Both the position numbers and the translations under genes were made by a program. Below, piece after piece: positions 35,304-63,471 of a stretch of 64,000 bases of DNA. This DNA comes from an uncultured Prevotella sp. (GTDB lineage: Bacteria; Bacteroidota; Bacteroidia; Bacteroidales; Bacteroidaceae). The notes under the pieces are model-generated. The model saw only the letters and a list, made by a program, of their open reading frames with translations, was not told the DNA's origin and made no database searches. The stretch covers positions 62,001 through 126,000 of the forward strand of contig CAMHTW010000002.1 in the NCBI GenBank assembly GCA_946188165.1. The letters are read 5' to 3'. The stretch's first letter is position 1, and each line of letters starts with the position of its first letter.

Positions 35304-35368
35304 AACCCACCCCCGGCCCCTCCCGAACGGGCAACCCACCCCCGACCCCTCCCGTTCGGGAGGGGAGG
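35304..35368 (-). repeat. CCCCTCCC repeats, two units, G-rich strand leftward
   Basis: Two units of the hairpin-plus-G-tail repeat upstream of porU, the first truncated in its hairpin. Inverted relative to the two units inside porU (35470-35541), so the porU start codon lies in the loop between inverted copies. Confidence 0.9.
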
Positions 35369-39111: not shown

Positions 39112-39112
39112 G

Positions 39113-39150
39113 AAACCCACCCCCGACCCCTCCCGAACGGGAGGGGGGTG
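39113..39150 (-). repeat. CCCCTCCC repeat between porU and porV
   Basis: One unit, G-rich strand leftward, starting two bases after the porU stop. Inverted relative to the unit in porV; the porV start lies between them. Confidence 0.9.
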
Positions 39151-39187
39151 ATTAAGAAAGATAAAATAAATAATATATATATTAAAT

Positions 39188-40414: not shown

Positions 40415-40500
40415 CAACCCACCCCCGGCCCCTCCCGAACGGGAGGGGAGGAATGAAAGAGAAACCCACCCCCGGCCCCTCCCGAGCGGGAGGGGAGGTT
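40415..40500 (-). repeat. CCCCTCCC repeats, two units upstream of the DUF559 gene
   Basis: Two units, G-rich strand leftward, starting at the porV stop and ending 26 bp before the DUF559 start. Together with the opposite-facing unit at 40916-40953 they bracket the DUF559 frame. Confidence 0.92.
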
Positions 40501-40526
40501 ATAAGATAATAATAGTATAATTGAAT

Positions 40527-41420
40527 ATGAGAAACAATAGATTTGAGACTACCGATGCTTCGACATACCAACTGTTGTTGGATAAAGCACGAGAGATGAG
40601 ACAGAATCCAACTGAAGCAGAATCTATTCTTTGGAGTTATCTATCGGATAATAAATTGGGCGTTCACTTCCGCAGACAGCATCCTGTCTATGGCTATATC
40701 CCAGACTTTGTCAGTCTGAAGAACCAAATCATTATTGAAATTGACGGTGGATATCACCTTGAGGGTGAACAGCCAGAAAAAGATGCTGAGCGTACCAGAT
40801 ATTTAAATCAAGCAGGTTTTGTCGTCCTTAGATTTACAAATGAAGAAGTACTGTGTGATATAGACAGCGTTTTAGAAGATATTACAGACCTCATAACTAC
40901 CCCCCAAAAATCTGCTCTCCCCTCCTGCACGGGAGGGGTTGGGGGTGGGTTCCGCATAGGAATGGGCTACGATGTCCACCGCCTGGTAGAAGGTCGTGAG
41001 TTATGGATGGGCGGCATCAAACTGGAACACGAGCTGGGCTTGTTAGGACATAGCGATGCCGATGTGCTGATACATGCTATCTGCGACGCCATACTCGGTG
41101 CTGCCAACATGCGCGATATTGGCTATCACTTCCCTGACACCTCGGCAGAAACCGACGGAATGGATAGTAAGATTATCCTTAAGAAAACGATTGAGCTGAT
41201 AGCTACCAAAGGTTACCAATTGGTGAATATCGATGCCACCATCTGTGCTGAACGCCCCAAGATGAACCCGCACATCCCAGAGATGCAGCAGTGCATGGCG
41301 AACGTCATCGGCTGTGATGTAGATGCCATCAGCATCAAGGCTACAACAACCGAAAAGTTGGGCTTTACTGGACGTATGGAGGGGATTAGTGCGTATGCGG
41401 TAGCATTGATAGAGAAATAA
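40527..41420 (+). CDS. ispF: DUF559 nuclease-like domain fused in frame to IspF
   Basis: One 297-aa frame with two unrelated halves. Residues about 1-125: DUF559/Vsr-like endonuclease fold (PTEAESILWSYLSDNKLGVH, RRQHPVYGYIPDFVSLKNQI, EIDGGYHL), with the PD...ExD-type core. Residues about 126-143 are encoded by one CCCCTCCC repeat unit (ALPSCTGGVGGGF). Residues about 144-297: complete 2-C-methyl-D-erythritol 2,4-cyclodiphosphate synthase of the MEP isoprenoid pathway, with metal ligands in GYDVHRL and GLLGHSDADVL and the end TTTEKLGFTGRMEGI. The normal IspF start is missing; the first internal ATG (40963) would remove the first strand. IspF is usually essential, so either the fusion works or an internal start is used. 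Start at ATG 40527. Confidence 0.88.
   Translation: MRNNRFETTDASTYQLLLDKAREMRQNPTEAESILWSYLSDNKLGVHFRRQHPVYGYIPDFVSLKNQIIIEIDGGYHLEGEQPEKDAERTRYLNQAGFVVLRFTNEEVLCDIDSVLEDITDLITTPQKSALPSCTGGVGGGFRIGMGYDVHRLVEGRELWMGGIKLEHELGLLGHSDADVLIHAICDAILGAANMRDIGYHFPDTSAETDGMDSKIILKKTIELIATKGYQLVNIDATICAERPKMNPHIPEMQQCMANVIGCDVDAISIKATTTEKLGFTGRMEGISAYAVALIEK
40916..40953 (+). repeat. CCCCTCCC repeat at the DUF559-IspF junction
   Basis: One unit (loop TGCA), in frame, G-rich tail rightward. It marks the right edge of the inserted DUF559 segment exactly where the conserved IspF sequence begins. Confidence 0.92.
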
Positions 41421-41457
41421 AAAGAACGTTACTACTCATCAACGAGCGGCAACGTTC
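41419..41457 (-). terminator. leftward terminator of the candidate small RNA
   Basis: Leftward GAACGTT...AACGTTC hairpin with inner CTC/GAG pairing, followed by TTTTTATTT. It lies at the ispF stop and may also help end the rightward ispF transcript. Confidence 0.7.
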
Positions 41458-41727
41458 AAAGCCTATGTTTAACTAAAAATCCTTTTCCAATACCAATCCA
41501 GCCTTTCGACTGGAAGTCTGTCCTTCGACAGCATATATAACTAATACTAACCTTTTCGCTTTAAAAAGAAAGTTATGACCGTCTCGCGACGACCACTGTT
41601 ACCCTAACACATTTAAAACTTTCTTATTACCAATAACTAAAAACCTAAAACTATAAATATTACTACTAACCTAAAACAATCTATTAACCATTCTTGACTT
41701 CACTTAGTCAAGTTTTGTCATGTTTGA
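41424..41727 (-). ncRNA. candidate small RNA, about 300 nt
   Basis: Bounded by a leftward promoter (TTG, 20-bp gap, TACCTTTG, 41733-41763) and the terminator at 41419-41457. No reading frame of note. Hairpins along the transcript: CTTGACT/AGTCAAG near the 5' end, CTGTC-GAAG-GACAG and CCAG-TCGAAAGG-CTGG near 41500-41520. This combination of promoter, structure and terminator is what a real RNA gene shows. I do not recognise the family; 6S-like RNA was considered but the overall fold is not visible by eye. Confidence 0.55.
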
Positions 41728-41732
41728 CAATG

Positions 41733-41763
41733 CAAAGGTACAATGTTTTTTATAATAACGCAA
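41733..41763 (-). promoter_or_regulatory. promoter of the candidate small RNA
   Basis: Leftward -7 box TACCTTTG (41733-41740) with TTG 20 bp upstream. No protein gene lies downstream on this strand before ispF's opposite-strand 3' end. Confidence 0.65.
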
Positions 41764-41899
41764 TACTTTTGATGATTTAAGTGTAAAAAAGCACTCTATT
41801 CTTGATTTAAATCAAGTGTTGTGCGCGAAAACATTCAAAATTTATAGATAAGGGATAGCTATCAGGCAGGGATCAAAGAAGAAAAATCGGGGCATTTTC

Positions 41900-41930
41900 T
41901 TGGTTATTCTATCATTTTGCACTACCTTTG
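41900..41930 (+). promoter_or_regulatory. promoter of the GT4 gene, probably leaderless
   Basis: TTG (41900-41902), 20-bp gap, TACCTTTG (41923-41930). The ATG follows only 4 bp after the -7 box, so the mRNA should begin at or next to the start codon. Confidence 0.7.
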
Positions 41931-41934
41931 CACC

Positions 41935-43218
41935 ATGCGAGTACTTATTATTAATACGAGTGAACGTACAGGTGGTGCTGCCGTAGCCGCCAGCCGCCTG
42001 ATGGAGGCCCTCAATCATAACGGTGTCAAAGCCAAGATGCTGGTACGCGACAAGGAAACCACCCATCTTTCTGTCTGCGCACTGCCTCAGACATGGCAAC
42101 TGCGCTGGAATTTCCTGTGGGAGCGTTTCTGCATCTGGCTGTATCTACGCCTGAAACGTGAACATCTGTTTGAGATAGACATCGCCAACTGCGGCACAGA
42201 CATCACCAGTCTGCCAGAATTCAAGGAAGCCGACATCATCCACCTGCATTGGATTAATCAAGGCATGTTGTCGCTGAAAGTCATCCAGAAGATCTTGCAA
42301 AGTGGCAAGCCAGTGGTATGGACGATGCACGATATCTGGCCTGCAACGGCCATTTGTCACCTGACCATGGACTGTCGCCGTTTTGAGACGCAGTGCCAAA
42401 ACTGTCGTCTATTGCCTGGTGGAGGTTCTGCCAATGACCTTTCTGCCCGTATTTGGAAACGAAAACAGCAAATGCTGGAAGGCAAACGCGTGACAATCGT
42501 CACGTGCAGTCAATGGCTGAAAGGTGAGGCACAAAAGAGTGCCCTGCTCAACAGGCAAGATATCACGAGCATTCCCAACCCCATTGACACCCATCGCTAC
42601 CATTCCGCCGATAAGAAAAAAGCGCGTCAGGCGTTAGGACTGCCGTTGGATGGACATATTATTCTATTTGCCTCACAACGGGTCACGAATCCCAACAAAG
42701 GCATGCAATACCTGATTGAAGCCTGCCAGTTGATGGCCAGTGAGCATCCAGACTGTCGTGATCATACATCGGTAGCCATTTTGGGTGGTCATGCTGAGGA
42801 GATAGCCCATCTGCTCCCCTTCCCTACCCACGCCTTAGGCTACGTGAACGACGAACAGCGCATCGTCAACGTTTATAATGCTGCCGATGTCTTTGTACTG
42901 CCATCACTGTCTGAAAATCTGCCCAACACCATCATGGAAGCGATGGCCTGTGGTGTACCCAGTGTAGGATTCCGTGTAGGTGGTATTCCCGAAATGATTG
43001 ATCACATGTCTAATGGCTATGTTGCCAACTACCGTGATGCAGCCGATTTGGCCAAAGGCATACACTATGTGCTTGACGAAGCCAATCAACAATCCTTAAG
43101 CAGCAACTGTCTGCAAAAAGTGGCTCACAACTACTCACAGCAGAGTGTTGCCAAGCGATACATAGACGTCTATGAAACAATAATGAATAAAACAACCAAA
43201 ACAACAAAGACAACATGA
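41935..43218 (+). CDS. glycosyltransferase family 4
   Basis: 427 aa, cytoplasmic GT-B enzyme. N-terminal acceptor domain (MRVLIINTSERTGGAAVAAS, IIHLHWINQGMLS, VVWTMHDIWPATAICH) and C-terminal GT4 donor domain (ILFASQRVTNPNKGMQYLIE, YNAADVFVLPSLSENLPNTI with the EX7E-type glutamates, MEAMACGVPSVGFRVGGIPE). Transfers a sugar from a nucleotide-sugar, probably for surface polysaccharide or O-antigen. The last ten residues ([10 protein letters not shown]) are encoded by one arm of a GTTGTC repeat (43189-43214), and the stop lies in the repeat loop. Forms a pair with the GT2 gene 52 bp downstream. Confidence 0.9.
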   Translation: MRVLIINTSERTGGAAVAASRLMEALNHNGVKAKMLVRDKETTHLSVCALPQTWQLRWNFLWERFCIWLYLRLKREHLFEIDIANCGTDITSLPEFKEADIIHLHWINQGMLSLKVIQKILQSGKPVVWTMHDIWPATAICHLTMDCRRFETQCQNCRLLPGGGSANDLSARIWKRKQQMLEGKRVTIVTCSQWLKGEAQKSALLNRQDITSIPNPIDTHRYHSADKKKARQALGLPLDGHIILFASQRVTNPNKGMQYLIEACQLMASEHPDCRDHTSVAILGGHAEEIAHLLPFPTHALGYVNDEQRIVNVYNAADVFVLPSLSENLPNTIMEAMACGVPSVGFRVGGIPEMIDHMSNGYVANYRDAADLAKGIHYVLDEANQQSLSSNCLQKVAHNYSQQSVAKRYIDVYETIMNKTTKTTKTT

Positions 43219-43260
43219 CATCATAAAAATCAATAGTTGTTTTAGTTGTCCAAGTTGTCT
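43189..43260. repeat. GTTGTC inverted repeat, gene-less copy
   Basis: Left arm 43189-43214 (aaaacaaccaaaacaaca then aagacaac), loop of 21 bp, right arm 43236-43260 (gttgttttagttgtcc then aagttgtct). Sits between two glycosyltransferase genes and supplies the end of the first. Confidence 0.85.
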
Positions 43261-43270
43261 TAAATATAAT

Positions 43271-44056
43271 ATGATACGGTTTTCTGTCGTAACCATTACA
43301 TATAATGCCGAGAAAGTATTGCAACGCACGCTTGACAGTGTACGTTACCAGACCCATGAAGGTGTGGAACACTTAATTGTCGATGGTGCTTCGAAAGACC
43401 AGACGCTGGCGATGGCTGAACAGTACAAACAGCAGAGTGACGCATCAGACAATGGTCATAAGGTCATTATTCAATCAGAGCCTGACCACGGCATTTATGA
43501 CGCCATGAATAAAGGACTGACCCAAGCCTCGGGCGACTACGTGGTATTTTTGAATGCGGGGGACTGCTTTCCTGCTGCTGACACGCTGGAAAAGATAGTC
43601 CATCTGTGCCGTCTCAACGAATATCCAGCCGCTGGACGTCCAGGTGTGCTATATGGCAATACCGACATTGTTGACGATGAGGGGCATTTTCTGCATCCGC
43701 GTCGTTTACAGCCTCCTGCAAAGCTCACATGGAAATCATTCCGTCATGGTATGTTGGTATGCCATCAGGCCTTCTATGCCCGTACGGACATTGCCAAGAA
43801 TACGCAGTACGACACCCGTTACCGTTTCTCGGCCGATGTGGACTGGTGTATCCGCATCATGCGCGAAACCGAACGGATGGGTCTGACACTTTGTAACACA
43901 AAAATGGTGGTAGCCAACTACACAGAGGAAGGAGCTACCACACAGAACCACAGCGAATCGCTGAAGGAACGCTTTCACGTCATGCGCCGTCACTATGGTC
44001 TGTTGACCACTTTGGCCATGCATGCGTGGTTTTTCATTCGTGCGTTCCTAAAATAG
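43271..44056 (+). CDS. glycosyltransferase family 2 (WcaA-like)
   Basis: 261 aa, GT-A fold. Motifs: FSVVTITYNAEKVLQRTLDS, IVDGASKDQT, SEPDHGIYDAMNKGLTQASG, FLNAGDCF, YGNTDIVDD. The DHGIYDAMNKG segment is typical of the colanic-acid/capsule branch. Probably adds a sugar to a lipid-linked polysaccharide precursor with the GT4 partner just upstream. A hydrophobic end (TTLAMHAWFFIRAFL) may touch the membrane. Confidence 0.88.
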   Translation: MIRFSVVTITYNAEKVLQRTLDSVRYQTHEGVEHLIVDGASKDQTLAMAEQYKQQSDASDNGHKVIIQSEPDHGIYDAMNKGLTQASGDYVVFLNAGDCFPAADTLEKIVHLCRLNEYPAAGRPGVLYGNTDIVDDEGHFLHPRRLQPPAKLTWKSFRHGMLVCHQAFYARTDIAKNTQYDTRYRFSADVDWCIRIMRETERMGLTLCNTKMVVANYTEEGATTQNHSESLKERFHVMRRHYGLLTTLAMHAWFFIRAFLK

Positions 44057-44060
44057 TGTA

Positions 44061-45884
44061 TTAAATTATTATTATCTTCCGGCCGTTGACGATATACAAG
44101 CCTTTCTGAGGTCTGCCAGATGATGGCATCTGGCTGATTCTGCGGCCCTGCAAATCATATATCTTATAGCTGCCATCAGACATCTGCCGTCTGACTTCTT
44201 GAATACCTGTCGTCGTCACCACATCCTGCTGTCCGTCTTTGGTGTAGTAGCCGCCATTGGTGAAGACGAGATCATTGGTCTGATTGCCGCCACCGCTGAA
44301 AATGATGTTGTTGGGAGCCGTTGTCTGGGCAGACACCCACTTAAACACCTTGTTACCATTATCAGCCGTACCTATTTGCGTTGCACTGACACCAGGCCAG
44401 CCTGTACCCAAATAATCCTCACCGCCTTTGCCGGTCATCCACGCCCAAGTGAATATCTGGCTGCCCCATGTCACAGGAGCCTCGAAGAAGGCACAGATTT
44501 CGCCTTCACCGACAGTACAGAAGGAAGGCACACCATTGTACACACCATCCTGCGGTTTCTGGTCTTCTTTCAATTCGGGGAACGTGATGTCAGCGGGGTC
44601 AATGCCTTGTACATAGTAAGCATAGTGGTATCCGCTCAGGACCTTCTTCCAATTAGTGTTGGTAGGCGTATAGCTACCCGCCTTGGTACCAACGACACAA
44701 AGCAGTTTCTTACCATTAGTGCCTTCCACCTGCACGGCAAAGTAGTCCTTGATGCTGCCAATAGTGACAGGCTGGCTGACATTCGTGATGCCTACCGCCT
44801 TACGCACAGCCACCATGTTAGCGATTTCCTGCTTGTAGGCCTGCCAGTGTTTCAGGAACACACAGGGCGTACCAGGCATAGCCAGCAGATAGGCATTGGC
44901 TGCCAAGGTGTCCTTGCGGATAGGGTCTTGCTGAGCCGTAGCCGAGCGGTACTCCGTATCATGGTTTTCCACAAAAGTCACAGCATACTGGCGATAGCTA
45001 CCGTTATAATAATTGCCGCTTACCAACGGCCAGTTGCCTTCGTTCTGAGCTGCCAACTTAGTCCAGTCCTGACTGTTGATGGCATTGCGAACAGTATAGC
45101 GGAACTGGAAGTCGAAGGCAGCACTGGTCTTATCCGTGGCATCAATCCAGTTCTTAATCGTATTCGAGCTGTCCCAGCACTCACCTACTGAGAACTGTGG
45201 TTTTGCGTCTTCATTATACATTTTGGTATATGAGCCGCTATAGCCTTTCACCATATCGTAGCGGAAGCCCACATAGCCAAAGTCCTCGAGCAGCATTTTC
45301 AGATAGGCCTTCACGTTGTTCTGCACATTCGCGCTTTTGTGGTCCAAGTCGCGCATGCCACCCCAGTCTTCGCCAGTATCGTTATTGCTGCTGACGCTGA
45401 GTCCCAGTTTGGCGGCCTCCGTCTTAGCCTTACCACCATCATCGTTGGCACAGATGTCCGTCGATTTCAGCTCGTAGGTCACACCCTTGTACTCCTCTTT
45501 TGGGAAATCCACCCAGTTTGAGACATTCTTGCGGTGGTTAATGACAATATCGGCAATGGTGCCAATGCCTTTTGCCTTGAAAGTGGCAATCATCGACTTC
45601 AGCTCTTCTGCTGTTCCGAACGAGCTGTTGTAATTCGAGAACCAATACAGGTCGTCGTATCCCATCGACTGTCCTCCGCAGTTTGCGCTCTGCGGTATCC
45701 ATACCAGGTCGAATGTCGTGGCAAGATTGTCCGACTGTCTTTCAAGTATCGACCATTGGGAATCAGCGTAGCCGTCCCAATAGAACCCTTGCAACATCAC
45801 GCCCCCATACTGTGCGGGCCATCCCTGTGCCATAGCAGTGAAAAGAGAAAAGTGAAAAGTGAAAAGTGCTACCAGCAGGCGCAT
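44061..45884 (-). CDS. GH13 alpha-amylase with T9SS-like tail
   Basis: 607 aa. GH13 catalytic barrel about 25-385, nucleophile Asp210 (GFRYDMVKG), acid/base Glu235 (SVGECWD), stabiliser Asp309 (VENHDTE); hydrolyses alpha-1,4 links of starch. The region after it (about 455-555) resembles a starch-binding beta domain. The end reads YKIYDLQGRRIS ... QKGLYIVNGRKIIII, the short T9SS-like tail. Start at 45884 gives MRLLVALFTFHFSLFTAMAQ, a signal peptide without lipobox, so this is not a SusG-type lipoprotein. Most of that signal peptide is encoded by a gtgaaaa microsatellite. An upstream extension (MTTMTTKRTW) comes from a GTTGTC arm. Converges with the GT2 gene. Confidence 0.88.
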   Translation of the reverse strand: MRLLVALFTFHFSLFTAMAQGWPAQYGGVMLQGFYWDGYADSQWSILERQSDNLATTFDLVWIPQSANCGGQSMGYDDLYWFSNYNSSFGTAEELKSMIATFKAKGIGTIADIVINHRKNVSNWVDFPKEEYKGVTYELKSTDICANDDGGKAKTEAAKLGLSVSSNNDTGEDWGGMRDLDHKSANVQNNVKAYLKMLLEDFGYVGFRYDMVKGYSGSYTKMYNEDAKPQFSVGECWDSSNTIKNWIDATDKTSAAFDFQFRYTVRNAINSQDWTKLAAQNEGNWPLVSGNYYNGSYRQYAVTFVENHDTEYRSATAQQDPIRKDTLAANAYLLAMPGTPCVFLKHWQAYKQEIANMVAVRKAVGITNVSQPVTIGSIKDYFAVQVEGTNGKKLLCVVGTKAGSYTPTNTNWKKVLSGYHYAYYVQGIDPADITFPELKEDQKPQDGVYNGVPSFCTVGEGEICAFFEAPVTWGSQIFTWAWMTGKGGEDYLGTGWPGVSATQIGTADNGNKVFKWVSAQTTAPNNIIFSGGGNQTNDLVFTNGGYYTKDGQQDVVTTTGIQEVRRQMSDGSYKIYDLQGRRISQMPSSGRPQKGLYIVNGRKIIII

Positions 45885-45894
45885 GGTCCACGTT

Positions 45895-45925
45895 CTTTTT
45901 GTTGTCATTGTTGTCATAGTTGTCG
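45895..45925. repeat. GTTGTC repeat, single arm
   Basis: ttgttgtcattgttgtcata then gttgtcg in the 5' leader of the GH13 gene, between promoter and start codon. No matching second arm nearby. Confidence 0.7.
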
Positions 45926-45941
45926 TTTATAAAATATGGTG

Positions 45942-45949
45942 CAAAGATA
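45942..45949 (-). promoter_or_regulatory. -7 box of the GH13 gene
   Basis: Leftward TATCTTTG, 57 bp before the chosen start. The upstream box is not clear. Confidence 0.55.
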
Positions 45950-46061
45950 CAAAGAAAACACATTCTTTGTTCTCCGACCCTCATAGAATATTTTCACTTA
46001 TATGTGCAATCGGTTGCACGAAAGCACCAATACACATAAAAAGAAAAAAGCAAGCCATTTC

Positions 46062-46093
46062 TTTGGCATTTCTATTGTTTTTTCGTAACTTCG
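46062..46093 (+). promoter_or_regulatory. promoter of the GH28 gene
   Basis: TTTG (46062-46065), 20-bp gap, TAACTTCG (46086-46093; one mismatch to TAnnTTTG). The start codon is 35 bp downstream. Confidence 0.6.
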
Positions 46094-46128
46094 CAGCCAA
46101 ATAAAACAAACTACAAAAAAGACTTATT

Positions 46129-47529
46129 ATGAAAACAAAGGTATTATGTGGCGTTCTGCTCATGCTGATTGCTCAAGCAGTTCAGGCAGCAACAAGTGTT
46201 TATAACGTTCGCGACTACGGTGCCAAGGGCGACGGTAAGACACTGGACCATATTGCCATTAACAAGGCCATCGAGGCGGCAAATGCCGACGGTGGCGGAC
46301 AGGTCGTATTGTCGGCAGGCACGTACCTCTGTGGCAGCATCCGCATGAAGAGCAATGTTGACTTGCACTTGACAGCAGGTGCCAGAATCCTGGCCGCACC
46401 AGCTTCGATGAAGGTCTACGATGAGAGCGAGGTGTTTGGTGCTCCGGAATACCAAGACGGCGGGCACACATACTTCCATAACTCGCTGATATGGGCAGAA
46501 GGTCAACAGAATGTCAGCATCACGGGACGCGGCATGATTGACGGTGAGGGCCTGACCAAGAAGGACACTGAGAAAGCCGGCAACGTGCAAGGGGGCAGTA
46601 TCGGCACCGGCGACAAGGCCATTGCCCTGAAGCTGTGCCGCAACGTCACCATCCGCGACATCACCATCTACCGTGGCGGCCACTTCGCCATCATTGTGAC
46701 AGGCTGCGACATTGGCACCATCGACAATGTGACCATCGACACTAACCGCGATGGCATCGACATCGACTGCTGCAAATACTTCACTGTCAGCAACACAAAG
46801 GTGAACACACCCAACGACGACGCTATCGTGCTGAAGAGTTCGTATGCCTTGAAGCGTCCCGTGCTCTGCGAACATATCCTCATCACCAACTGCATCGTGA
46901 CGGGCTACAAACTGGGCACCTTCCTTGACGGCACCTACGTGCCAGAGAAAGTGAACTGGGTGTGCGGACGCATCAAACTGGGCACGGAGTCGAACGGCGG
47001 CTATCGCAACATCACCATATCGAACTGCTCGTGCATGTGGAGCAGCGGACTGGCCTTCGAGGAGGTTGACCAGGGACGCATGGAGAACATCGTCGTCACC
47101 AACATCTCCTTGAGTCACGTCCATCACTACCCCATCTACATCACCACAGGCTGTCGCAACCGTGGACCGAAGGAGCGCACGGACGTATCCTCGGCACGTG
47201 ACATATATATCAGTAATGTGGTGGCGGACGACTGCGACTCGCTGGCAAGCATCATCATCACCGGCATGGAGGGCGAGCCCATCCGCAACGTGTCGCTGTC
47301 GGACATCCGCATCCAGTATCGTGGTGGCGGCAAGAAGGTCAGCAAGCCATACCGCGAGCAGGGCACCAACTATCCTGAACCACGTTGGGCTGGTCCAACA
47401 CCCGCCTACGGCCTCTTTGCCCGCCACGTCGATGGTTTGCAACTGCGCAACGTCAAGTTTGAGCTGATGCGTCCTGATGAACGTCCCGACATCATCCTTG
47501 AGGACGTAAAAAACTACGATTCAAAATAG
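46129..47529 (+). CDS. GH28 polygalacturonase-like enzyme
   Basis: 466 aa. Signal peptide MKTKVLCGVLLMLIAQAVQA, then a right-handed parallel beta-helix: YNVRDYGAKGDGKTLDHIAI is the classical start. Active-site region NTPNDDAIVLKS with Asp230/Asp231, the DGIDIDCC turn just before, and RIKLGTES further on, equivalent to the RIK motif of pectinases. Hydrolyses galacturonan or rhamnogalacturonan oligosaccharides, probably in the periplasm. Single gene; not functionally tied to the starch genes. Confidence 0.9.
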   Translation: MKTKVLCGVLLMLIAQAVQAATSVYNVRDYGAKGDGKTLDHIAINKAIEAANADGGGQVVLSAGTYLCGSIRMKSNVDLHLTAGARILAAPASMKVYDESEVFGAPEYQDGGHTYFHNSLIWAEGQQNVSITGRGMIDGEGLTKKDTEKAGNVQGGSIGTGDKAIALKLCRNVTIRDITIYRGGHFAIIVTGCDIGTIDNVTIDTNRDGIDIDCCKYFTVSNTKVNTPNDDAIVLKSSYALKRPVLCEHILITNCIVTGYKLGTFLDGTYVPEKVNWVCGRIKLGTESNGGYRNITISNCSCMWSSGLAFEEVDQGRMENIVVTNISLSHVHHYPIYITTGCRNRGPKERTDVSSARDIYISNVVADDCDSLASIIITGMEGEPIRNVSLSDIRIQYRGGGKKVSKPYREQGTNYPEPRWAGPTPAYGLFARHVDGLQLRNVKFELMRPDERPDIILEDVKNYDSK

Positions 47530-47615
47530 CCATATTAATAGTTTGTCCAACCTGACAAATACATTTTGAGAATAACAAAAGCAGTACATATCAGTAAGAC
47601 GAAGATAAAGCCTAA

Positions 47616-47953
47616 CACCTCTAACACCTCTAACACCCAAAACTGCGTCCGAAGGGCTATTCCTTCGGGCGCAAGGTATAGTACGAAATGCGCATTTTGC
47701 GCAGTGCCGTTACGTTTGTGGTCTCGTTGATGAGGCCTTTGCGGTTGAATGTTGTCTTTTTCTTCATTTTTCGTTTAGTTTTTATGAAGTTCAACATCAT
47801 TTTCCCGAATGGAGGCGCCGTTCATCTGAACGGAGGCGCCGTTTGAAAATTTAGAGCCGCCATTTTTTCAAACGGGGCCGCCATTTTTTCAAACGGGGCC
47901 TCCGTTTTCCTGGGTTTCGGTCCCATTTTTGGGTGTTAGAGGTGTTAGAGGTG
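47616..47953. mobile_element. MITE-like element with 27-bp terminal inverted repeats
   Basis: Perfect 27-bp inverted repeats at 47616-47642 and 47927-47953, themselves built from cacctctaa repeats. Inside: the 36-aa frame, a hairpin with 11-bp arms (47645-47672), a CGCCGTTC-ATCT-GAACGG inverted repeat (47816-47833), and a 21-bp tandem (ccgccattttttcaaacgg, at 47857 and 47878). No transposase, so a non-autonomous element is the natural reading. No target-site duplication recognised. Confidence 0.6.
47657..47767 (-). CDS. 36-aa ORF inside the inverted-repeat element
   Basis: Begins MKKKTTFNRKGLINETTNVT and ends TLRPKE. Basic, no signal peptide, no known family. The stop lies in the loop of the GC-rich hairpin at 47645-47672. 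A real gene only if related elements conserve the frame. Confidence 0.35.
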   Translation of the reverse strand: MKKKTTFNRKGLINETTNVTALRKMRISYYTLRPKE

Positions 47954-48082
47954 TCGGCCCTTTTTCTTGGTGCAAAGTTAGCAGATGGTTCGCGTGTGCA
48001 CAATAGTTTTTATGATGGCTGACCATTAACAATCGTTAACCGCCTTTGCAAATGACATTTGTACGCTGGGGGACAATAGAAA

Positions 48083-48112
48083 CAGGCGGGCACCATTGCT
48101 GATGTCCGCCTG
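48083..48112 (-). terminator. terminator of the susCDEF operon
   Basis: Leftward CAGGCGG...CCGCCTG hairpin followed by TTTC, about 22 bp after the SusF stop. Confidence 0.7.
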
Positions 48113-48134
48113 AATTAGATTGTGAAAAGATGAA

Positions 48135-49532: not shown

Positions 49533-49551
49533 AATTACACGTCGTTAAAAA

Positions 49552-50667: not shown

Positions 50668-50718
50668 AATTTTCAATTATAAATTATCAATTATAAATTA
50701 TCTACTTTCGACTATCAA

Positions 50719-52332
50719 CTATCTACTGTATCCTGGATTCTGTACATTGCCATAGGTAGACAACTGAGAAGCTGGAATAGCATAGATGTTCTTGTAGGCT
50801 TCAAAGTTACGGCCATTGTAGGTGCCGCCCTTCCACTGCCAGATATAGTCGGTATCGCCACCGAACTTGCCAAAACGGATGAGGTCCACACGACGGCGTC
50901 CTTCAAAGTAGAACTCGCGAGCCCACTCATCGAGAATCTCGTCCAACGCATAATTAGCCTTGGTAGAGGCGTGAGCGCGTAAACGCAGTGCATTGATAGC
51001 ATTGGCACCTTCGGCATTGGTGGCACCTCCGTTGATACGGGCTTGAGCCTCTGCATAAGTCAGGTAGGCTTCAGCAGCACGGAAGAAGAAGAAGTCTGCA
51101 TCCATAAACGTCGCATCGTGGCCGATTGAGCCGTCAGTCTTGAAGTTGACAAACTTGGCTACGGCATAACCATTCTTAAAGGTAGCACGGTCGAGGTTAT
51201 TTATCTCGCGGCCAATACCGTCGAAGATGGCACGGTCATCACCTGCGGCAATAGTCATCTGATAGGAAGCCAACTGAGGTGCATCCAGATTCGGGAAGAA
51301 CTTCTGAATCAGATTAGGGCGTGTACGGTTACCACCCCACACCTGACCAGAGAGTCCGTTCGTGGCATCAAGATCATTGGGGTTGGCGTGCATGTCACTG
51401 TCGAAGCTACCAGCGCAGAGGAACTGCGTAGTACCCCATGAAGTGGTCAGCAAACCATCCTGAAGAATAGGGAAGATAGCCTCGTAGGCAGCATCAGTCT
51501 CACCATTATCACCCATAAAGAGCATCTGATAAGCACTCCAACCGTTGACACCGTTAGTATTCAGCTTATAGGGAGAGTCCATGACCTTCTTGGCATACTC
51601 AGCAGCCTTAGCCCACTGAGCCGTACCTGTATATACCTCTGCATTCAGGTATAGGCGTGAGAGCAGAATCCATGCTGCGGCCTTGTCCACACGGCCATAG
51701 CCGGCATCAGACGATTTCTTGGGTTTGGCCTCAGACAGATTCGGTTCTACATTAGTGGTAAGCTCATTCACCAGCCAGTCATAAATTTCCTGACGGCTAT
51801 AGATGACGGGATCGCCTAATGTCTCTGCAAAAGGAACACGTCCAAAGGCATCCATCAGCAGATAGTAGTTGAGTGCACGGATAAAGCGGACTTCAGCCGT
51901 CATCGTTGCATCGTGACCAGAGGCAACGGTCAGATACTGGTTACAATAGGTAATACCTGTGGTAAGGCGGGCGAAATAACCATTGAGCATCGGATGAGAC
52001 TCGTCGTAGGTATTAAAGCATGACTGCTCAATACCATCGTCGCCCCAGCCGTTAATAGCCTCGTCTGTAGGAAGTTCATTAGCATTCCACATTTGACGAA
52101 TGTAACCAGATGTACCACCATCGATACCGTCGATATCGCAGTCACCGTTAGCACCGCCATTTCCCGCCATTGCGATGTTTGCATAGCATTTGTTGAAAAG
52201 GCCTTCAACGTTCATTTCTGTTGACATGTTAGGATCCAGTGGCTCAACATCCAAGTCACCTGTACAAGATGTCACACCTAACGTCAGCAGGAAGGCTGCT
52301 GCGGGAATCAAATTCTTATATATTTTTTTCAT
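50719..52332 (-). CDS. susD: SusD-like starch-binding lipoprotein
   Basis: 537 aa, RagB/SusD family. Lipobox VTSC followed by TGDLDVEPLDPN, the usual SusD start. TPR-rich helical fold (FNKCYANIAMAGNGGANGDC, EVRFIRALNYYLLMDAFGRV, AAWILLSRLYLNAEVYTGTA) and the conserved end (EWAREFYFEGRRRVDLIRFG). Caps SusC and delivers malto-oligosaccharides to it. Located 28 bp after susC. Confidence 0.92.
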   Translation of the reverse strand: MKKIYKNLIPAAAFLLTLGVTSCTGDLDVEPLDPNMSTEMNVEGLFNKCYANIAMAGNGGANGDCDIDGIDGGTSGYIRQMWNANELPTDEAINGWGDDGIEQSCFNTYDESHPMLNGYFARLTTGITYCNQYLTVASGHDATMTAEVRFIRALNYYLLMDAFGRVPFAETLGDPVIYSRQEIYDWLVNELTTNVEPNLSEAKPKKSSDAGYGRVDKAAAWILLSRLYLNAEVYTGTAQWAKAAEYAKKVMDSPYKLNTNGVNGWSAYQMLFMGDNGETDAAYEAIFPILQDGLLTTSWGTTQFLCAGSFDSDMHANPNDLDATNGLSGQVWGGNRTRPNLIQKFFPNLDAPQLASYQMTIAAGDDRAIFDGIGREINNLDRATFKNGYAVAKFVNFKTDGSIGHDATFMDADFFFFRAAEAYLTYAEAQARINGGATNAEGANAINALRLRAHASTKANYALDEILDEWAREFYFEGRRRVDLIRFGKFGGDTDYIWQWKGGTYNGRNFEAYKNIYAIPASQLSTYGNVQNPGYSR

Positions 52333-52360
52333 GACTTATTATACTTATATGATTGTTGAC

Positions 52361-55300
52361 TTAGAAATTCAAGTTCAAACCAAAGATTACAGAGATGGGG
52401 CGAGGATACATGTTGCTGTCGAAACCGTTGGCTACCTCAGGATCCAAACCCTTATACTTCGTAATAGTAAACACGTTGTTCACAGTTGCATATACACGTC
52501 CGCCCAGCGCATTGAACAGATTAGAGAAACTGTAACCAAGCGTTATGTTGTCACACTTCAGGAAAGAAGCGTTGTGAACATAGTAGTCAGAGAGTTGAGA
52601 GGTAATCTGGTAAGTCTGCCAGTTGCGATCAACAGCCTCGTACGAATAGTTGTTCATATAGAGCAGTGAGCTCTTCCATACCTCAGTCGGATTGACATTG
52701 GCCATGCCTTGCTCATTGTTGTTATATACATAATTGTCGAAGCTGGCGCGGAACGACATACCCAAATCCCAATTCTTATACTCAACACGTGTTGAGAGGC
52801 CCATAGTTACAGGAGCTGCCGGGCTCTTGTAGAAATACTTGTCAGCCTGAGTAATCTGGCCGTCTCCATTACGGTCAACCACCACATTCTCCAGCGGTTT
52901 TCCGTTCTGGTCGTATGCCTGCTGGAACACATAGAATGAATTGATGGGGTGACCAACCTGCTGATACTCCAGATAACGGTCGGTACCAATCTTGATGCCC
53001 GTATTGGGAACAGGCGAACCGTCCTCAGAAACACCACTCAGGTCAGTGATTTCATTCTTATTATAGGTAATGTTGTAATCAAGTACCCAATACCAATCTT
53101 TGGTCTGGACAGCCTTCCAACTGATGCTTGCCTCAATACCCTTGTTCTCCAGTTCACCAATGTTCTGCCAAGCTTGGTTACGGAAGGCAGACAGTGCTTT
53201 TGTGGGAGCATAGTTTAACAAGTCGGTGGTCTTGCGATAATAGTAGTCGATAGATCCGGACAGGCGCTGATTCATGATACCCCAGTCAAATCCAATGTTG
53301 GTCGTGGTAGTAGTCTCCCATTTCAGATTTGGCGTGTAGTTGTCCGGGCGATAGAGTACGCCATCGCCAGTAACGGGATAGAAGCCGTTGGTACCCGTAT
53401 TCTTAGAATAGGTTGGAATCCAGCTGTAGTCAGGCACGGCACCAGCCTGCTGGCCAGTCTTACCCCAGCCAAGACGGAGTTTCAGATCAGAGAACACCTT
53501 AGAATCTCTAAGGAACCCTTCCTCGTTGATTTTCCATGCGAAAGCAAAAGAGGGGAATGTAGCCCAGTGCTCCTTGAAACGGCTCGAACCATCACGGCGT
53601 ACAGTAGCGGTCAGATAGTAACGGTCAAGCAGGGTGTAGTTGGCACGTCCGAAGAATGACACCAGATAGCTGTCGGTACGGAAGTGGTAGGGCGTGTGGG
53701 GACGCTCATTGACAGTAGGATCCGTTGTGGGATCTTTCCATTTGGGACTCGTTGAAGGATAATAGCCAATATAGTCGTTCTTGACATCCCTCCAAAAATG
53801 CTGCCACTCATAACCGGCCATCACGTCAACATGGTGAATCTTAGCAAAATCCTTGAAATACTGAGCGTATGCTGAGAACTGCAGATTACGCTTCAAGATT
53901 TTCTCATCACCAAAGCTTCCATAATAAATGGAACCTGTGTACCAAGGCTGATTATTCGTATATTGTTTACCTTCAGAAACATCAGCACCCATAGTAACGT
54001 GGAGACGCAAATCTTCAAAGCCGTGAATCTTATAGTCAATATCGGCACTTCCTACGAACGAACGACTCTTGGCGTATTCATCACGTCCATTGAGCAAAGC
54101 CACTGGGTTAGGCATGTTGGCAACACCATTGTAAGTGTATGGCCAAGCAGTGTCACCGTCGTAATTTGCAGCCACAGGCCACTGGAAATAGCCGCCGAAA
54201 TTGCTCAGCGTCTTCTGGAGGTCATTGCCCAACAACTCTTTGTGATATTCAGATGTGAAATTGTTCGGATCCTGCGTGGGGTCGAAGTAAACGGCTGCAC
54301 CAACAGCAGCACCGTCAGCATACTGGGTCTTGGCATACATACCCTTGGCATTCAAGTTCAGGTTCAGGTGGTCATCAAAGAATGAAGGATTGAGGTTCAA
54401 AGCAGCTGTGACACGCTTGAAGTCAGAGGTTTTGATGATACCCTGCTGATCTGTATAACCTACAGAAACACGATAAGGGAGATTCTTGAAGGCTCCAGAC
54501 ACCGTGAGATTGTGGTCATGGCTGAAAGCAGTACGATAGATTTCATCCTGCCAGTCCGTATTTGCTGTACCAAGTGCCTTGTAAGGAATACTTTCCGTTC
54601 CATACATATTCTTAATAAAGGCACGATATTCATCGCCATTCATCACGTCAAGAGACTTCTGACGCATACTGATGGTAGCGCTACCGGCATAAGAGATTGT
54701 GGGCTTAGTGTTCTTACGGCCCTTCTTGGTTGTGATAATGATGACACCATTAGAACCACGGCTACCATAGATAGCAGTAGCAGAAGCATCCTTCAAAACG
54801 TTGAAAGACTCAATGTCCTGCGGATTGATCATAGAAAGGGGGTTGGAAAGACCCTTCACACCTTCGTTATCCATTGCCAGACCATCAATTACAATCAACG
54901 GGTCATTAGAGGCATTCAGTGATGAACCACCACGAATACGAATCTGAGCACCACTACCTGGAGCACCATCGTTACTGATAATGTTGACACCGGCAACCTT
55001 ACCAGCCAACATATCTTGCGGATTGACCACAAGACCCTTGTTCTTACTGTCAGGTTTCAAAGCTGATACCGATCCTGTCAGGTCACTTTTCTTCACCTGA
55101 CCGTAACCGATAACCACCACTTCATTCAGCACAGCATTGTCTTCCTGTAGTACGATTTCTACAGAAGGAGCAGCTTTAACTGTGGCATCTTGATAACCGA
55201 TGTAGCTGACAACGATGTCAGCACCTGCATTAGCCTTCAGCGTGAAGTTACCGTCGAAGTCCGTAATGGTAGCAGTCTGCGTGTTCGCTACACGTACGGT

Positions 55301-55444
55301 GGCACCGATGATAGGTTCACCCTGAGCATCCTTAACATGGCCTTTCACGTCCATTTGCGCGAAGGCTCCTACCGATAGGAACAGTCCTAACATGAGGACC
55401 AGCATCCTAAAAGGCATCTTAATGTTTACCTGCTTCATCTTCAT
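52361..55444 (-). CDS. susC: SusC-like TonB-dependent outer-membrane transporter
   Basis: 1027 aa, full length. Signal peptide about 1-29. CarboxypepD_reg-like domain (about 32-115: VKGHVKDAQGEPIIGATVRV), TonB box region, plug domain (about 125-240: GYGQVKKSDLTGSVSALKPD, RIRGGSSLNASNDPLIVIDG, YGSRGSNGVIIITTKKG), then the 22-stranded barrel to the terminal Phe (IFGLNLNF). Imports starch oligosaccharides with SusD using TonB-ExbBD energy. First gene of the leftward operon; a -7 box and the palindromic operator lie upstream. Confidence 0.94.
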   Translation of the reverse strand: MKMKQVNIKMPFRMLVLMLGLFLSVGAFAQMDVKGHVKDAQGEPIIGATVRVANTQTATITDFDGNFTLKANAGADIVVSYIGYQDATVKAAPSVEIVLQEDNAVLNEVVVIGYGQVKKSDLTGSVSALKPDSKNKGLVVNPQDMLAGKVAGVNIISNDGAPGSGAQIRIRGGSSLNASNDPLIVIDGLAMDNEGVKGLSNPLSMINPQDIESFNVLKDASATAIYGSRGSNGVIIITTKKGRKNTKPTISYAGSATISMRQKSLDVMNGDEYRAFIKNMYGTESIPYKALGTANTDWQDEIYRTAFSHDHNLTVSGAFKNLPYRVSVGYTDQQGIIKTSDFKRVTAALNLNPSFFDDHLNLNLNAKGMYAKTQYADGAAVGAAVYFDPTQDPNNFTSEYHKELLGNDLQKTLSNFGGYFQWPVAANYDGDTAWPYTYNGVANMPNPVALLNGRDEYAKSRSFVGSADIDYKIHGFEDLRLHVTMGADVSEGKQYTNNQPWYTGSIYYGSFGDEKILKRNLQFSAYAQYFKDFAKIHHVDVMAGYEWQHFWRDVKNDYIGYYPSTSPKWKDPTTDPTVNERPHTPYHFRTDSYLVSFFGRANYTLLDRYYLTATVRRDGSSRFKEHWATFPSFAFAWKINEEGFLRDSKVFSDLKLRLGWGKTGQQAGAVPDYSWIPTYSKNTGTNGFYPVTGDGVLYRPDNYTPNLKWETTTTTNIGFDWGIMNQRLSGSIDYYYRKTTDLLNYAPTKALSAFRNQAWQNIGELENKGIEASISWKAVQTKDWYWVLDYNITYNKNEITDLSGVSEDGSPVPNTGIKIGTDRYLEYQQVGHPINSFYVFQQAYDQNGKPLENVVVDRNGDGQITQADKYFYKSPAAPVTMGLSTRVEYKNWDLGMSFRASFDNYVYNNNEQGMANVNPTEVWKSSLLYMNNYSYEAVDRNWQTYQITSQLSDYYVHNASFLKCDNITLGYSFSNLFNALGGRVYATVNNVFTITKYKGLDPEVANGFDSNMYPRPISVIFGLNLNF

Positions 55445-55517
55445 TTTATTAAAGTTACTAGTTATAAAAATTTGGTCTTAAGTATATTCGAATTAACGAA
55501 ATGATTTAAATCTGCTG

Positions 55518-55525
55518 CAAAAGTA
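55518..55525 (-). promoter_or_regulatory. -7 box of the susCDEF operon
   Basis: Leftward TACTTTTG, matching TAnnTTTG, 73 bp before the susC start. No clear TTTG 19-21 bp upstream, which would fit a promoter that needs an activator. Confidence 0.6.
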
Positions 55526-55577
55526 AAGATTATTTCGTTACGTTATACTTTTTTAGGGTATAAAACGTTATATAGTT

Positions 55578-55595
55578 AATGCAAACGTTTGCATT
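55578..55595. promoter_or_regulatory. palindromic LacI-family operator
   Basis: AATGCAAACGTTTGCATT, perfect 18-bp palindrome with a central CG, the form bound by LacI-family regulators. It lies 52 bp upstream of the susC -7 box and 80 bp before the lacI start, so one site could control both directions. Confidence 0.75.
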
Positions 55596-55647
55596 GTGTT
55601 TTATTAACAAATAAGGTATTAAAAGAACAGCATGACAAACTTTTCCA

Positions 55648-55655
55648 TAACTTTG
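55648..55655 (+). promoter_or_regulatory. -7 box of the LacI-family regulator gene
   Basis: TAACTTTG, exact match to TAnnTTTG, 20 bp before the start codon. Confidence 0.6.
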
Positions 55656-55675
55656 CATGCATAACTAACAACTGA

Positions 55676-56701
55676 ATGAAAGAAACAGCCCCATTAACGA
55701 TGAAGGACATTGCCCGCGAGCTTGGTATCTCCGTGGCAACCGTGTCGCGAGCCCTGAAGGACTCACCTCGCATCTCGGCAGAACGTCGGGCTGCCATTCA
55801 GCAGTATGCTCGTGAACACAATTTCACTCCAAACGTGATAGCTGAGTCGCTACGTCATTCCAGGATTAAGCCGCAAAAGGTGATTGGCGTCATCATCCCT
55901 GAATTCACCCATTTTTACTTCTCGTCAGTACTGGCTGGCATCGAGGAAGAAGCATCGGCACACGGCTATCGCATCATGGTAGCGCAGAGCAACGAGCAGT
56001 ATGAGCGTGAGGTCAGGATCTGCCAGTCGTTCTACGAGAACAAGGTATGCGGCATCATCGTCAGTCAGGCCAAGGACACGCATCAGTATGATCATTTCCA
56101 GCGAATGATGGATGCAGGTCTGCCTCTTGTATTCTATGATAGAATATGTACGGGCGTGAATGCAAGCCGTGTGGTGGTTGATGACTATATGGGAGCTTAT
56201 AATGCTGTGACTTACCTGATAGAGACAGGATGCCGCAATATTGCCTTCTATGGTGCAGCCATGAATCTGGAGATATCGAAGAACCGCTTTAACGGTTACA
56301 AGGATGCACTGCTGAAACACGGACTGACTTACGATGAAGGACTGACCTATATCTGTGACAATCGTGCCGATGCAGAAGCCATTACCCCGGAGATTCTGAA
56401 AAGTGAGCCAAGACCTGACGGATTCTTTGCCGTCAACGACGACACGGCCATCGGTATTCTCTATACGGCCAAACGTATGGGATTCAACGTTCCTAACGAC
56501 ATCAGCATCTGCGGATTCACCAACGGACAACGGGCTGTAGCCTGCGACCCGATGCTGACTACCGTAGAACAGCGTGGCATGAAGGTGGGCGAAGAGGCTG
56601 TCGATATCTTAATAAACCAAGTAGAGGGTATTATTCCCCGAGACAAGCCTCAGCGTCGCGTCGTCCGTACCAGACTTGTTATTCGCGGTACTACAAAATA
56701 A
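55676..56701 (+). CDS. LacI-family transcriptional regulator of the starch locus
   Basis: 341 aa, full length. N-terminal HTH (MKDIARELGISVATVSRALK, hinge helix NVIAESLRHSR at about 53-63) and a periplasmic-binding-protein-like sensor domain (VIGVIIPEFTHFYFSSVLAG, FYDRICTGVNASRVVVDDYM, DGFFAVNDDTAIGILYTAKR). Probably binds maltose or a malto-oligosaccharide and controls both susCDEF and the rightward genes through the palindrome at 55578. Differs from the B. thetaiotaomicron sus locus, which uses SusR. Followed by the GxxExxY gene after 35 bp. Confidence 0.9.
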   Translation: MKETAPLTMKDIARELGISVATVSRALKDSPRISAERRAAIQQYAREHNFTPNVIAESLRHSRIKPQKVIGVIIPEFTHFYFSSVLAGIEEEASAHGYRIMVAQSNEQYEREVRICQSFYENKVCGIIVSQAKDTHQYDHFQRMMDAGLPLVFYDRICTGVNASRVVVDDYMGAYNAVTYLIETGCRNIAFYGAAMNLEISKNRFNGYKDALLKHGLTYDEGLTYICDNRADAEAITPEILKSEPRPDGFFAVNDDTAIGILYTAKRMGFNVPNDISICGFTNGQRAVACDPMLTTVEQRGMKVGEEAVDILINQVEGIIPRDKPQRRVVRTRLVIRGTTK

Positions 56702-56703
56702 AT

Positions 56704-56731
56704 AAAAGACAACTTGAACAACTAAGACAAC
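56704..56731. repeat. GTTGTC repeat, left arm of the GxxExxY element
   Basis: aaaagacaacttgaacaact then aagacaac, starting two bases after the lacI stop and ending 5 bp before the GxxExxY start. Complement of the right arm at 57189-57215. Confidence 0.85.
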
Positions 56732-56736
56732 TTTCA

Positions 56737-57177
56737 ATGGATGAAATAATTGACACAAAGAAATATAAGGCACATATTTACGATGTGATAGGTGCTATTC
56801 ATGAAGTCCATAAGGAATTAGGCCCTGGACTTAATGAGTACTGTTATCAAGAAGGCATGCAGATGCAGTTGCAAGAGCAGGGCATTCCTTTTAAGCGTGA
56901 ATTATCCTTCCATCCAACTTACCATGGGAAACCCATGGAATCACTTTATAGAGTAGATTTTTTATGTAAAGATGATATTATTGTAGAGTGTAAGTCTGTC
57001 AACGAACTGATAAACAATCATAGGGCTCAATTATTTAATTATATGCGCCTACTAAAGAGTTCATGTGGCATTCTTGTCAATTTTGCGCCTTCATTCGCTA
57101 CGATAGAACGGTATTTCTATAATGATAATGCTAAAGTTATATTCAATGTCGATGGCAAAGTAATACAATTTTTATAA
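56737..57177 (+). CDS. GxxExxY protein (PD-(D/E)XK-like)
   Basis: 146 aa, complete. Matches the GxxExxY family: IYDVIGAIHEVHKELGPGLN, EYCYQEGMQMQLQEQGIPF, and the core YRVDFLCKDDIIVECKSVNE containing the D...ExK arrangement of PD-(D/E)XK nucleases. End: HRAQLFNYMRLLKSSCGILV, SFATIERYFY. Function is unknown; nuclease activity is inferred from the fold. The gene is the only one between lacI and the sugar transporter not related to starch and is bracketed closely by inverted GTTGTC arms, so it looks like an insertion into the sus operon. Confidence 0.88.
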   Translation: MDEIIDTKKYKAHIYDVIGAIHEVHKELGPGLNEYCYQEGMQMQLQEQGIPFKRELSFHPTYHGKPMESLYRVDFLCKDDIIVECKSVNELINNHRAQLFNYMRLLKSSCGILVNFAPSFATIERYFYNDNAKVIFNVDGKVIQFL

Positions 57178-57188
57178 TTATTCTCATA

Positions 57189-57215
57189 GTTGTTTAAGTT
57201 GTCTAAGTTGTCTTT
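57189..57215. repeat. GTTGTC repeat, right arm of the GxxExxY element
   Basis: gttgtttaagttgtctaagt then tgtcttt, 12 bp after the GxxExxY stop and 15 bp before the transporter gene. Confidence 0.85.
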
Positions 57216-57229
57216 AATTAAAATATTAT

Positions 57230-61004: not shown

Positions 61005-63471
<2,467 letters not shown>

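Follow-up and report, generated by a model that had tools for sequence, protein, structure and literature searches.

The window analyzed here is a 64,000-nucleotide stretch of an uncultured Prevotella sp. (contig CAMHTW010000002.1; in our numbering G000:C2:62001-126000, part of a 3.4 Mb assembly). It carries two small genes for putative PD-(D/E)XK nucleases, each enclosed by the arms of an inverted repeat. The gene of the DUF559 family (PF04480) lies between inverted C-rich arms (40463-40951), and that of the GxxExxY family (PF13366) between inverted arms that each comprise three 9-bp units with the core GTTGTC (56701-57219). Both layouts, and the gene-less copies of the two repeats in the same window, had been pointed out in a first-pass annotation of this DNA and are present as it described them. 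We suggest, with a probability of roughly 0.55, that the gene-bearing and gene-less hairpins form a mobile element resembling REPINs (hairpin-forming doublets of repetitive extragenic palindromic, REP, sequences), with a PD-(D/E)XK nuclease in place of the HUH transposase. Each nuclease probably drives the spread of its own repeat, because the pairing of nuclease gene and gene-less repeats recurs in relatives and in other phyla.

By inverted-repeat search, the DUF559 arms in the window are 35 nt long and 89% complementary, and each is composed of a palindrome and a tail; the GxxExxY arms are 32 nt long and 84% complementary. Across loci, DUF559 arms are C-rich. GxxExxY arms consist mostly of 2-4 tandem units of 8 or 9 bp, the core of which varies between loci (TCTGTG, TCCGTG, TTCGTG, TCTGCG, GTTGTC and others).

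Recurrence of the layout

Both gene families are common in relatives of the organism. PF13366 is present in 96 of 150 same-genus genomes and in 60 of 118 Bacteroidota, and PF04480 in 87 and 61 genomes of the same two sets. The named relatives, retrieved with one window protein, are Prevotella, Prevotellaceae and close genera. We inspected the flanks of 143 GxxExxY open reading frames (ORFs) in 140 loci (the best-scoring among the matches listed) and of 31 same-genus DUF559 loci, calling arms in Bacteroidota loci at an inverted-arm score of at least 13. Inverted arms surround 106 of the 143 GxxExxY ORFs and 27 of the 31 DUF559 loci. Shifted windows gave 0/61 for the same 31 DUF559 loci and 2/113 for 59 of the 140 GxxExxY loci, and matching the upstream flank of one locus with the downstream flank of another gave 18/472 over 59 loci. 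Because both kinds of control are near zero, we conclude that the arms around these genes are not due to chance.

For other phyla we used 16 of the 46 listed tblastn matches on plasmid and chromid records, with a threshold score of at least 17. C-rich inverted arms were identified at 7 of 11 DUF559 loci (three in Deinococcus and one each in Azospirillum, Sphingobium, Pseudanabaena and Picosynechococcus). Two Synechocystis loci have the C-rich repeat on the upstream side only, and the Novosphingobium and Sinorhizobium loci have no arms that pass this score. GxxExxY genes of this sample have arms at two of five loci, in Bernardetia (itself a member of the Bacteroidota) and in Sphingomonas, where the units are GC-rich. 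A Treponema locus has an 11-bp perfect pair, and no arms pass the score in Gemmatirosa and Persicobacter. Mismatched controls at the same score gave 0/75 for GxxExxY and, for DUF559, 0/55 against the other family and 6/110 within the family, whose C-rich arms are alike. The architecture of a gene within inverted arms is convergent and general: the general class proposed in the first-pass annotation recurs across the genus, the Bacteroidota and other phyla, and it is wider than first proposed.

The layout extends to a third protein family. In some relatives, the gap between the genes for LacI and a major facilitator superfamily (MFS) transporter, which holds the GxxExxY element in the window, contains another gene between other arms. 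In L247, L257, L279 and L295 (L and G numbers denote loci and genomes), Pfam identifies this gene as PF05635, the protein of the 23S rRNA intervening sequence; in L307 the gene is decayed and its PF05635 match is below the cut-off. PF05635 is present in 87 of 100 same-genus genomes, and inverted arms occur at 27 of 30 PF05635 loci, compared with 1 of 55 controls. PF05635 genes between inverted tandem-unit arms were seen at L357-L386 as well as at the five gap loci. Across the three families, the class of arm goes with the family of protein. PF05635 is thus a new third family that shares the layout and is not a nuclease. Since it is a four-helix-bundle protein, what the three families share is a small gene within a repeat hairpin and not a nuclease as such, so the small nuclease is not the common denominator that it was first taken to be.

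The proteins

Pfam assigns the window genes to PF04480 and PF13366, and neither to the HUH Y1 transposases (PF01797) nor to S23/PF05635. The two genes had been described as unrelated. They do belong to different families, but "unrelated" is too strong because profile-profile comparison aligns their D..E-x-(D/K) cores (hhalign probability 82%); judged by this alignment, DUF559 and GxxExxY are distinct families of one nuclease superfamily. D74, E84 and K86 of GxxExxY are invariant across 64 aligned sequences, and D62, E73, D75 and H79 of DUF559 across 37. The GxxExxY gene is under constraint. DUF559 matches the catalytic domain of the homing endonuclease I-Bth0305I in sequence (3r3p, 6e-6) and in fold (E 8.9e-5, TM score 0.77 on the target). 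GxxExxY is closest to SSO0001 and shows a likeness to Cas4. At three loci (L453, L454, L455) a GxxExxY domain without arms is fused, in one frame of 883 amino acids, ahead of a DEAD-box helicase, which we take to be RecQ-like.

Association of repeats and proteins

Arm sequences were compared by shared 6-mers at 89 loci in 63 genomes. Sharing is 0.273 with the nearest protein in another genome, versus 0.056 between paralogues of the same genome and 0.052 between random loci; in 46 paired cases, 35 favor the nearest protein elsewhere and 9 the same-genome paralogue, with 2 ties. By this measure, arm sequence is tied more closely to the protein than to the genome. A test in trans used the seven genomes that had listed 9-bp arms as well as resident loci, after removal of the arms adjoining resident genes (2 of 22 in G045, 7 of 13 in G042, 1 of 21 in G075 and 1 of 8 in G028). 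The gene-less 9-bp arms match those of the resident genes better than chance in G045, G042 and G075 (p 0.0005, 0.007 and 0.0005).

Copy numbers are also associated. In the sample of 150 same-genus genomes, C-rich repeats correlate with the count of DUF559 (rho 0.56, p 9e-14) and 9-bp arms with that of GxxExxY (rho 0.46, p 4e-9); with GxxExxY held constant, DUF559 shows no association with 9-bp arms (-0.03). Among the 118 Bacteroidota, at least three 9-bp arms are present in 12 of 60 genomes with GxxExxY versus 1 of 58 without it (p 0.002; rho 0.24).

The same intergenic sites exist with and without an element. LacI lies upstream of the MFS gene in 78 of 80 relatives retrieved around that gene, and in 60 of these the gap is at most 140 bp. 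GxxExxY elements occupy seven LacI-MFS gaps, five with GTTGTC arms and two with CACGGA-type arms (one of the two with a shortened gene); PF05635 genes occupy five, and gene-less C-rich or other repeats are found in others. In the nearest relative by nucleotide identity of the flanks (L248) the gap is 12 bp, versus 531 bp in the window, and the second nearest (L246) has a GTTGTC-armed GxxExxY gene in the gap. Other short-unit repeats (CTATAGTT, ACTAG) occur there with no gene in L243, L266, L238 and L264. The spacing between the PorV and IspF genes without DUF559 is 12-153 bp in 28 of 30 loci, the remaining two being the window itself and one locus without a PorV match. Two DUF559-free PorV-IspF gaps (L331 and L335) contain a C-rich remnant.

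Neighboring repeat sites tend to form doublets with the arms pointing outward. We counted the orientation of neighbors within 250 bp among the sites listed, which comprise 140 C-rich sites in 8 genomes and 144 9-bp sites in 10 genomes. Arms point outward in 17 of 24 C-rich pairs and inward in none, and outward in 18 of 24 9-bp pairs and inward in one, the remainder having the same direction (pooled, 35 of 48 outward and 1 inward). Left out of this count were G080, G008 and G028 (10 C-rich sites, no neighbors) and G077, G146 and G054 (six 9-bp sites, one same-direction pair).

DUF559 inside host proteins

Among 60 DUF559 loci, the gene stands alone in 36, continues into the next ORF in 9 and is part of a longer ORF in 15. 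A fusion of DUF559 to IspF is encoded in 8 of 140 genomes with ispF. In the window, the end of the arm stands where DUF559-free relatives have the IspF start codon, which is likewise gone in L044 and L046. The C-rich repeat also occurs in frame at a single internal position of ispF (L391-L395); four of these loci have no nuclease gene there, and L392 also has a DUF559 fusion.

Hosts of internal DUF559 domains identified by Pfam include leucyl-tRNA synthetase (LeuRS) at two sites (L425, L445), MetH (L436, L441), HsdR (L428), HsdM (L433), a helicase and an ATP-binding cassette (ABC) protein; hosts at L427, L448 and L450 were assigned by similarity to these. In LeuRS (at both sites) and MetH, DUF559 lies in frame between linkers derived from the arms (L425, L427, L448, L445, L436, L441), which encode, for example, TPSLREG..LSLGEGKGG. 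The alignment to a solved LeuRS stops at residue 236 of the latter and restarts at 240, while the query jumps from 300 to 461; for MetH, the alignment passes from 752 to 772 and the query from 463 to 628. No intein or splicing domain was present among the Pfam hits of nine host proteins. The in-frame presence of DUF559 in hosts such as LeuRS and MetH is a new observation, for which we infer a homing-like origin. Because DUF559 arms are readable in frame, the elements lie upstream of or inside protein genes without introducing a stop.

Other features of the window

The window elements are located in the LacI/MFS and PorV/IspF gaps, outside rRNA genes, and Rfam has no match in the window between 34 and 62 kb. 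Neighboring genes identified by Pfam encode a C25 peptidase (PorU-like), PorV, YgbB (IspF), LacI, an MFS protein and a glycosyltransferase. In addition to the features in Table 1, gene-less C-rich copies occur near 862 and at 35317-35366, and a lone GTTGTC arm at about 45889-45930. Another pair of arms made of 9-bp units (CTAACACCT) was found at 47612-47954; its 262-nt loop contains many small palindromes and no recognized gene.

Table 1. Coordinates of hairpins, arms and associated genes in the window.
Feature	Position	Strand	Basis
Two in-frame C-rich hairpins, N-terminal region of C25-peptidase (PorU-like) ORF (..LPSRSGGVGGG..)	35472..35530	+	ORF, Pfam
Gene-less C-rich hairpin 3' of C25-peptidase (PorU-like) gene	39111..39157	+	family D2, Pfam
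C-rich hairpin, in frame close to PorV N-terminus	39254..39287	+	ORF; Pfam PorV 4e-64
Gene-less C-rich hairpin immediately upstream of DUF559 element	40413..40459	+	family D2
Upstream C-rich arm of DUF559 element; REP-like palindrome, outward CCCACCCCC tail	40463..40497	+	inverted repeat I3, sequence
DUF559 (Vsr/EDxHD-type PD-(D/E)XK) coding region	40521..40904; domain ~40581-40892	+	Pfam 3.6e-34; matches 3hrl, 3r3p
Downstream C-rich arm, in-frame ..LPSCTGGVGGGF; joins DUF559 to IspF, no stop	40917..40951	+	ORF list, inverted repeat
IspF (YgbB) portion of read-through ORF	40962..41420	+	Pfam YgbB 4e-67
Gene-less GTTGTC hairpin; left arm codes C-terminus of upstream glycosyltransferase ORF	43201..43265	+	ORF, Pfam
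Upstream arm of GxxExxY element, AGACAACTT-type 9-bp units	56701..56732	+	inverted repeat I8
GxxExxY gene (PDDEXK_3)	56737..57177	+	Pfam 9.8e-33
Downstream arm of GxxExxY element, GTTGTCNNN units	57188..57219	+	inverted repeat I8
Gene-less GTTGTC hairpin, tandem copy 1 of 2	61011..61075	+	repeat search
Gene-less GTTGTC hairpin, tandem copy 2 of 2	61097..61161	+	repeat search

Comparison with known systems

The first-pass annotation knew of no described system with such a pairing; close analogues do exist, in REPINs with their REP-associated tyrosine transposases (RAYTs) and in the 23S rRNA intervening sequence (IVS). REPINs, in the available portion of their description, are inverted doublets of short palindromic repeats with short spacers, and the linked gene is flanked by the same repeats (PMC3116915); TnpA-REP and REP co-evolve, according to the part available of a second report (PMC8266576). 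The elements described here are likewise inverted, arms-out doublets with a linked gene flanked by the same repeats. Unlike REPINs, however, they are linked to a PD-(D/E)XK nuclease or a four-helix-bundle protein rather than a HUH Y1 transposase, the GxxExxY arms are tandem units of 8-9 bp, and DUF559 elements also occur in frame inside proteins. The 23S rRNA IVS with its S23 protein, as presented in the accessible text of PMC4990558, also has a hairpin stem with a small ORF, and our third family is the same protein family. The elements here differ in that they lie between or inside protein genes, have gene-less copies and, in two of three families, encode nucleases.

The likeness of DUF559 to I-Bth0305I, an EDxHD/Vsr-like homing endonuclease, concerns the catalytic domain; in contrast to that system, neither intron nor intein was found here (by Rfam in 34-62 kb of the window and by Pfam in nine hosts), and the flanking repeats also exist alone. 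Rickettsia palindromic elements are palindromic repeats found in frame within protein-coding genes. The C-rich repeat resembles them in ispF (five genomes) and in the window's PorU-like and PorV genes, but it is linked to a nuclease gene, and this gene too can be carried in frame. The Vsr-like VsrA of Caulobacter has the same DUF559 domain; the available part of its description interprets it as likely acting in mismatch repair tied to cytosine methylation and leaves flanking repeat arms unmentioned.

Mechanism and alternative explanations

In the mechanism that we propose, a nuclease encoded in the loop of a repeat hairpin would recognize its own arms and drive their copying. The nuclease would bind folded arms (single-stranded or cruciform) and nick or cut at them, and repair or strand transfer would then copy the hairpin. 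The gene-less doublets would be non-autonomous copies mobilized in trans.

Several observations weigh against this reading. Physical linkage alone could yield the co-variation of arm and protein, and gene-less 9-bp arms fail to match the resident genes in four of the seven genomes of the in-trans test (G028, G032, G097 and G136). In an informal comparison, the 17 TYYGYG arms of the window genome appear unlike the arms of its two resident genes. Of 11 genomes with the GTTGTC repeat, 2 yielded a GTTGTC-armed gene (26 rows, one gene counted twice), compared with 1 of 85 rows from other genomes, and 1 of 30 GTTGTC places adjoins the gene. Beside the DUF559 gene, the tail is directed outward in 15 upstream flanks and inward in 3; on the downstream side the numbers are 13 and 8. 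The empty site in L248 shares 12 bp at the left junction, and no clear target-site duplication is readable. Beyond the genus the arms are weaker: among 29 Bacteroidota loci, they are present at 9 of the 16 where DUF559 is stand-alone and at 4 of the 13 where it is internal. At LeuRS and MetH sites shared by two hosts, DUF559 is 64-70% identical and the hosts 67-85%. Since DUF559 is no better conserved than its host, these insertions look old and inherited, and recent transfer of the homing type is not seen.

The expectation that repeat number would depend on nuclease presence, made at the outset, is borne out by the two correlations but has clear exceptions. The correlations ignore phylogeny; GxxExxY also tracks C-rich repeats (partial 0.34, DUF559 controlled); and 8 and 14 genomes of the 150 have at least five arms yet lack the gene. 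In the 118 Bacteroidota, any 9-bp arm at all is present in 18 of 60 genomes with GxxExxY versus 10 of 58 without (p 0.13). G026, G081 and six more genomes have at least five 9-bp arms and no GxxExxY match; the gene may have been lost, be absent from the draft or have been replaced. Several of the elements analyzed lie at the ends of contigs in draft assemblies. Three stretches of G081 (L396-L398) contain no inverted pair enclosing a gene.

Two alternatives stand out, namely homing into hairpins that already exist and an IVS-like life at the RNA level. According to the first, which we regard as unlikely, the hairpins spread by other means and the nuclease homes into existing loops, cutting gene-less copies and being copied in by repair. 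The structural closeness of DUF559 to I-Bth0305I would fit such a history, as would the arms common to gene-less and gene-bearing pairs, the loops of gene-less copies (20-69 nt, with no gene inside, in the copies read) and the many arms that are single and present without a gene. Co-variation of arm and protein across genomes would be unexpected of unlinked, pre-existing hairpins unless recognition is strict. Moreover, most empty LacI-MFS and PorV-IspF gaps have no hairpin of the inserted class, with fragments in L252, L275 and L278 and in L331 and L335.

An RNA-level element seems to us improbable. RNase III would cut the stem from transcripts as in the 23S IVS, making insertions harmless, and the nuclease would be cargo. 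That the third family in this layout is the IVS protein PF05635 itself points in this direction, and an IVS has complementary sequences at its borders and is excised by RNase III, as stated in the accessible text of PMC4990558. However, the DUF559 insertions in LeuRS and MetH hold frame across both arms, which would serve no purpose if the stem were cut out and the ends rejoined, and the nuclease residues are invariant.

Still less probable, and already disfavored, is that inverted repeats of other origin (terminators or recombination debris) trapped small genes as neutral cargo; the arms do occupy short gaps between genes, where hairpins resembling terminators are expected, but three specific families each have their own arm class and arms are nearly absent at shifted windows. 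That Y1_Tnp-family HUH transposases spread the repeats, with the nuclease genes as bystanders, is very improbable: Y1_Tnp is present in 88 of the 150 same-genus genomes and does track 9-bp arms (partial 0.22, p 0.007), a point against the nuclease as engine, but it does not track C-rich repeats (partial -0.02), and with Y1_Tnp controlled the correlations of GxxExxY with 9-bp arms (0.40) and of DUF559 with C-rich repeats (0.47) survive.

Significance

We tentatively propose that these hairpins might constitute a new class of mobile element, made up of stand-alone PD-(D/E)XK hairpins and a parallel four-helix-bundle line, with a DUF559 branch that resides unspliced and in frame in housekeeping enzymes such as LeuRS, IspF and MetH. 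Untagged palindromic repeats without a known enzyme have been reported from several bacteria, and candidate enzymes are now named for two repeat classes. If real, the proposed class would explain two widespread kinds of repeat, the C-rich palindromes and the hairpins of 8-9 bp tandem units, and would unite DUF559, GxxExxY and the IVS protein family in a common role. The DUF559 branch would then become part of a host housekeeping protein, a route by which a mobile element could reside in such proteins without splicing.

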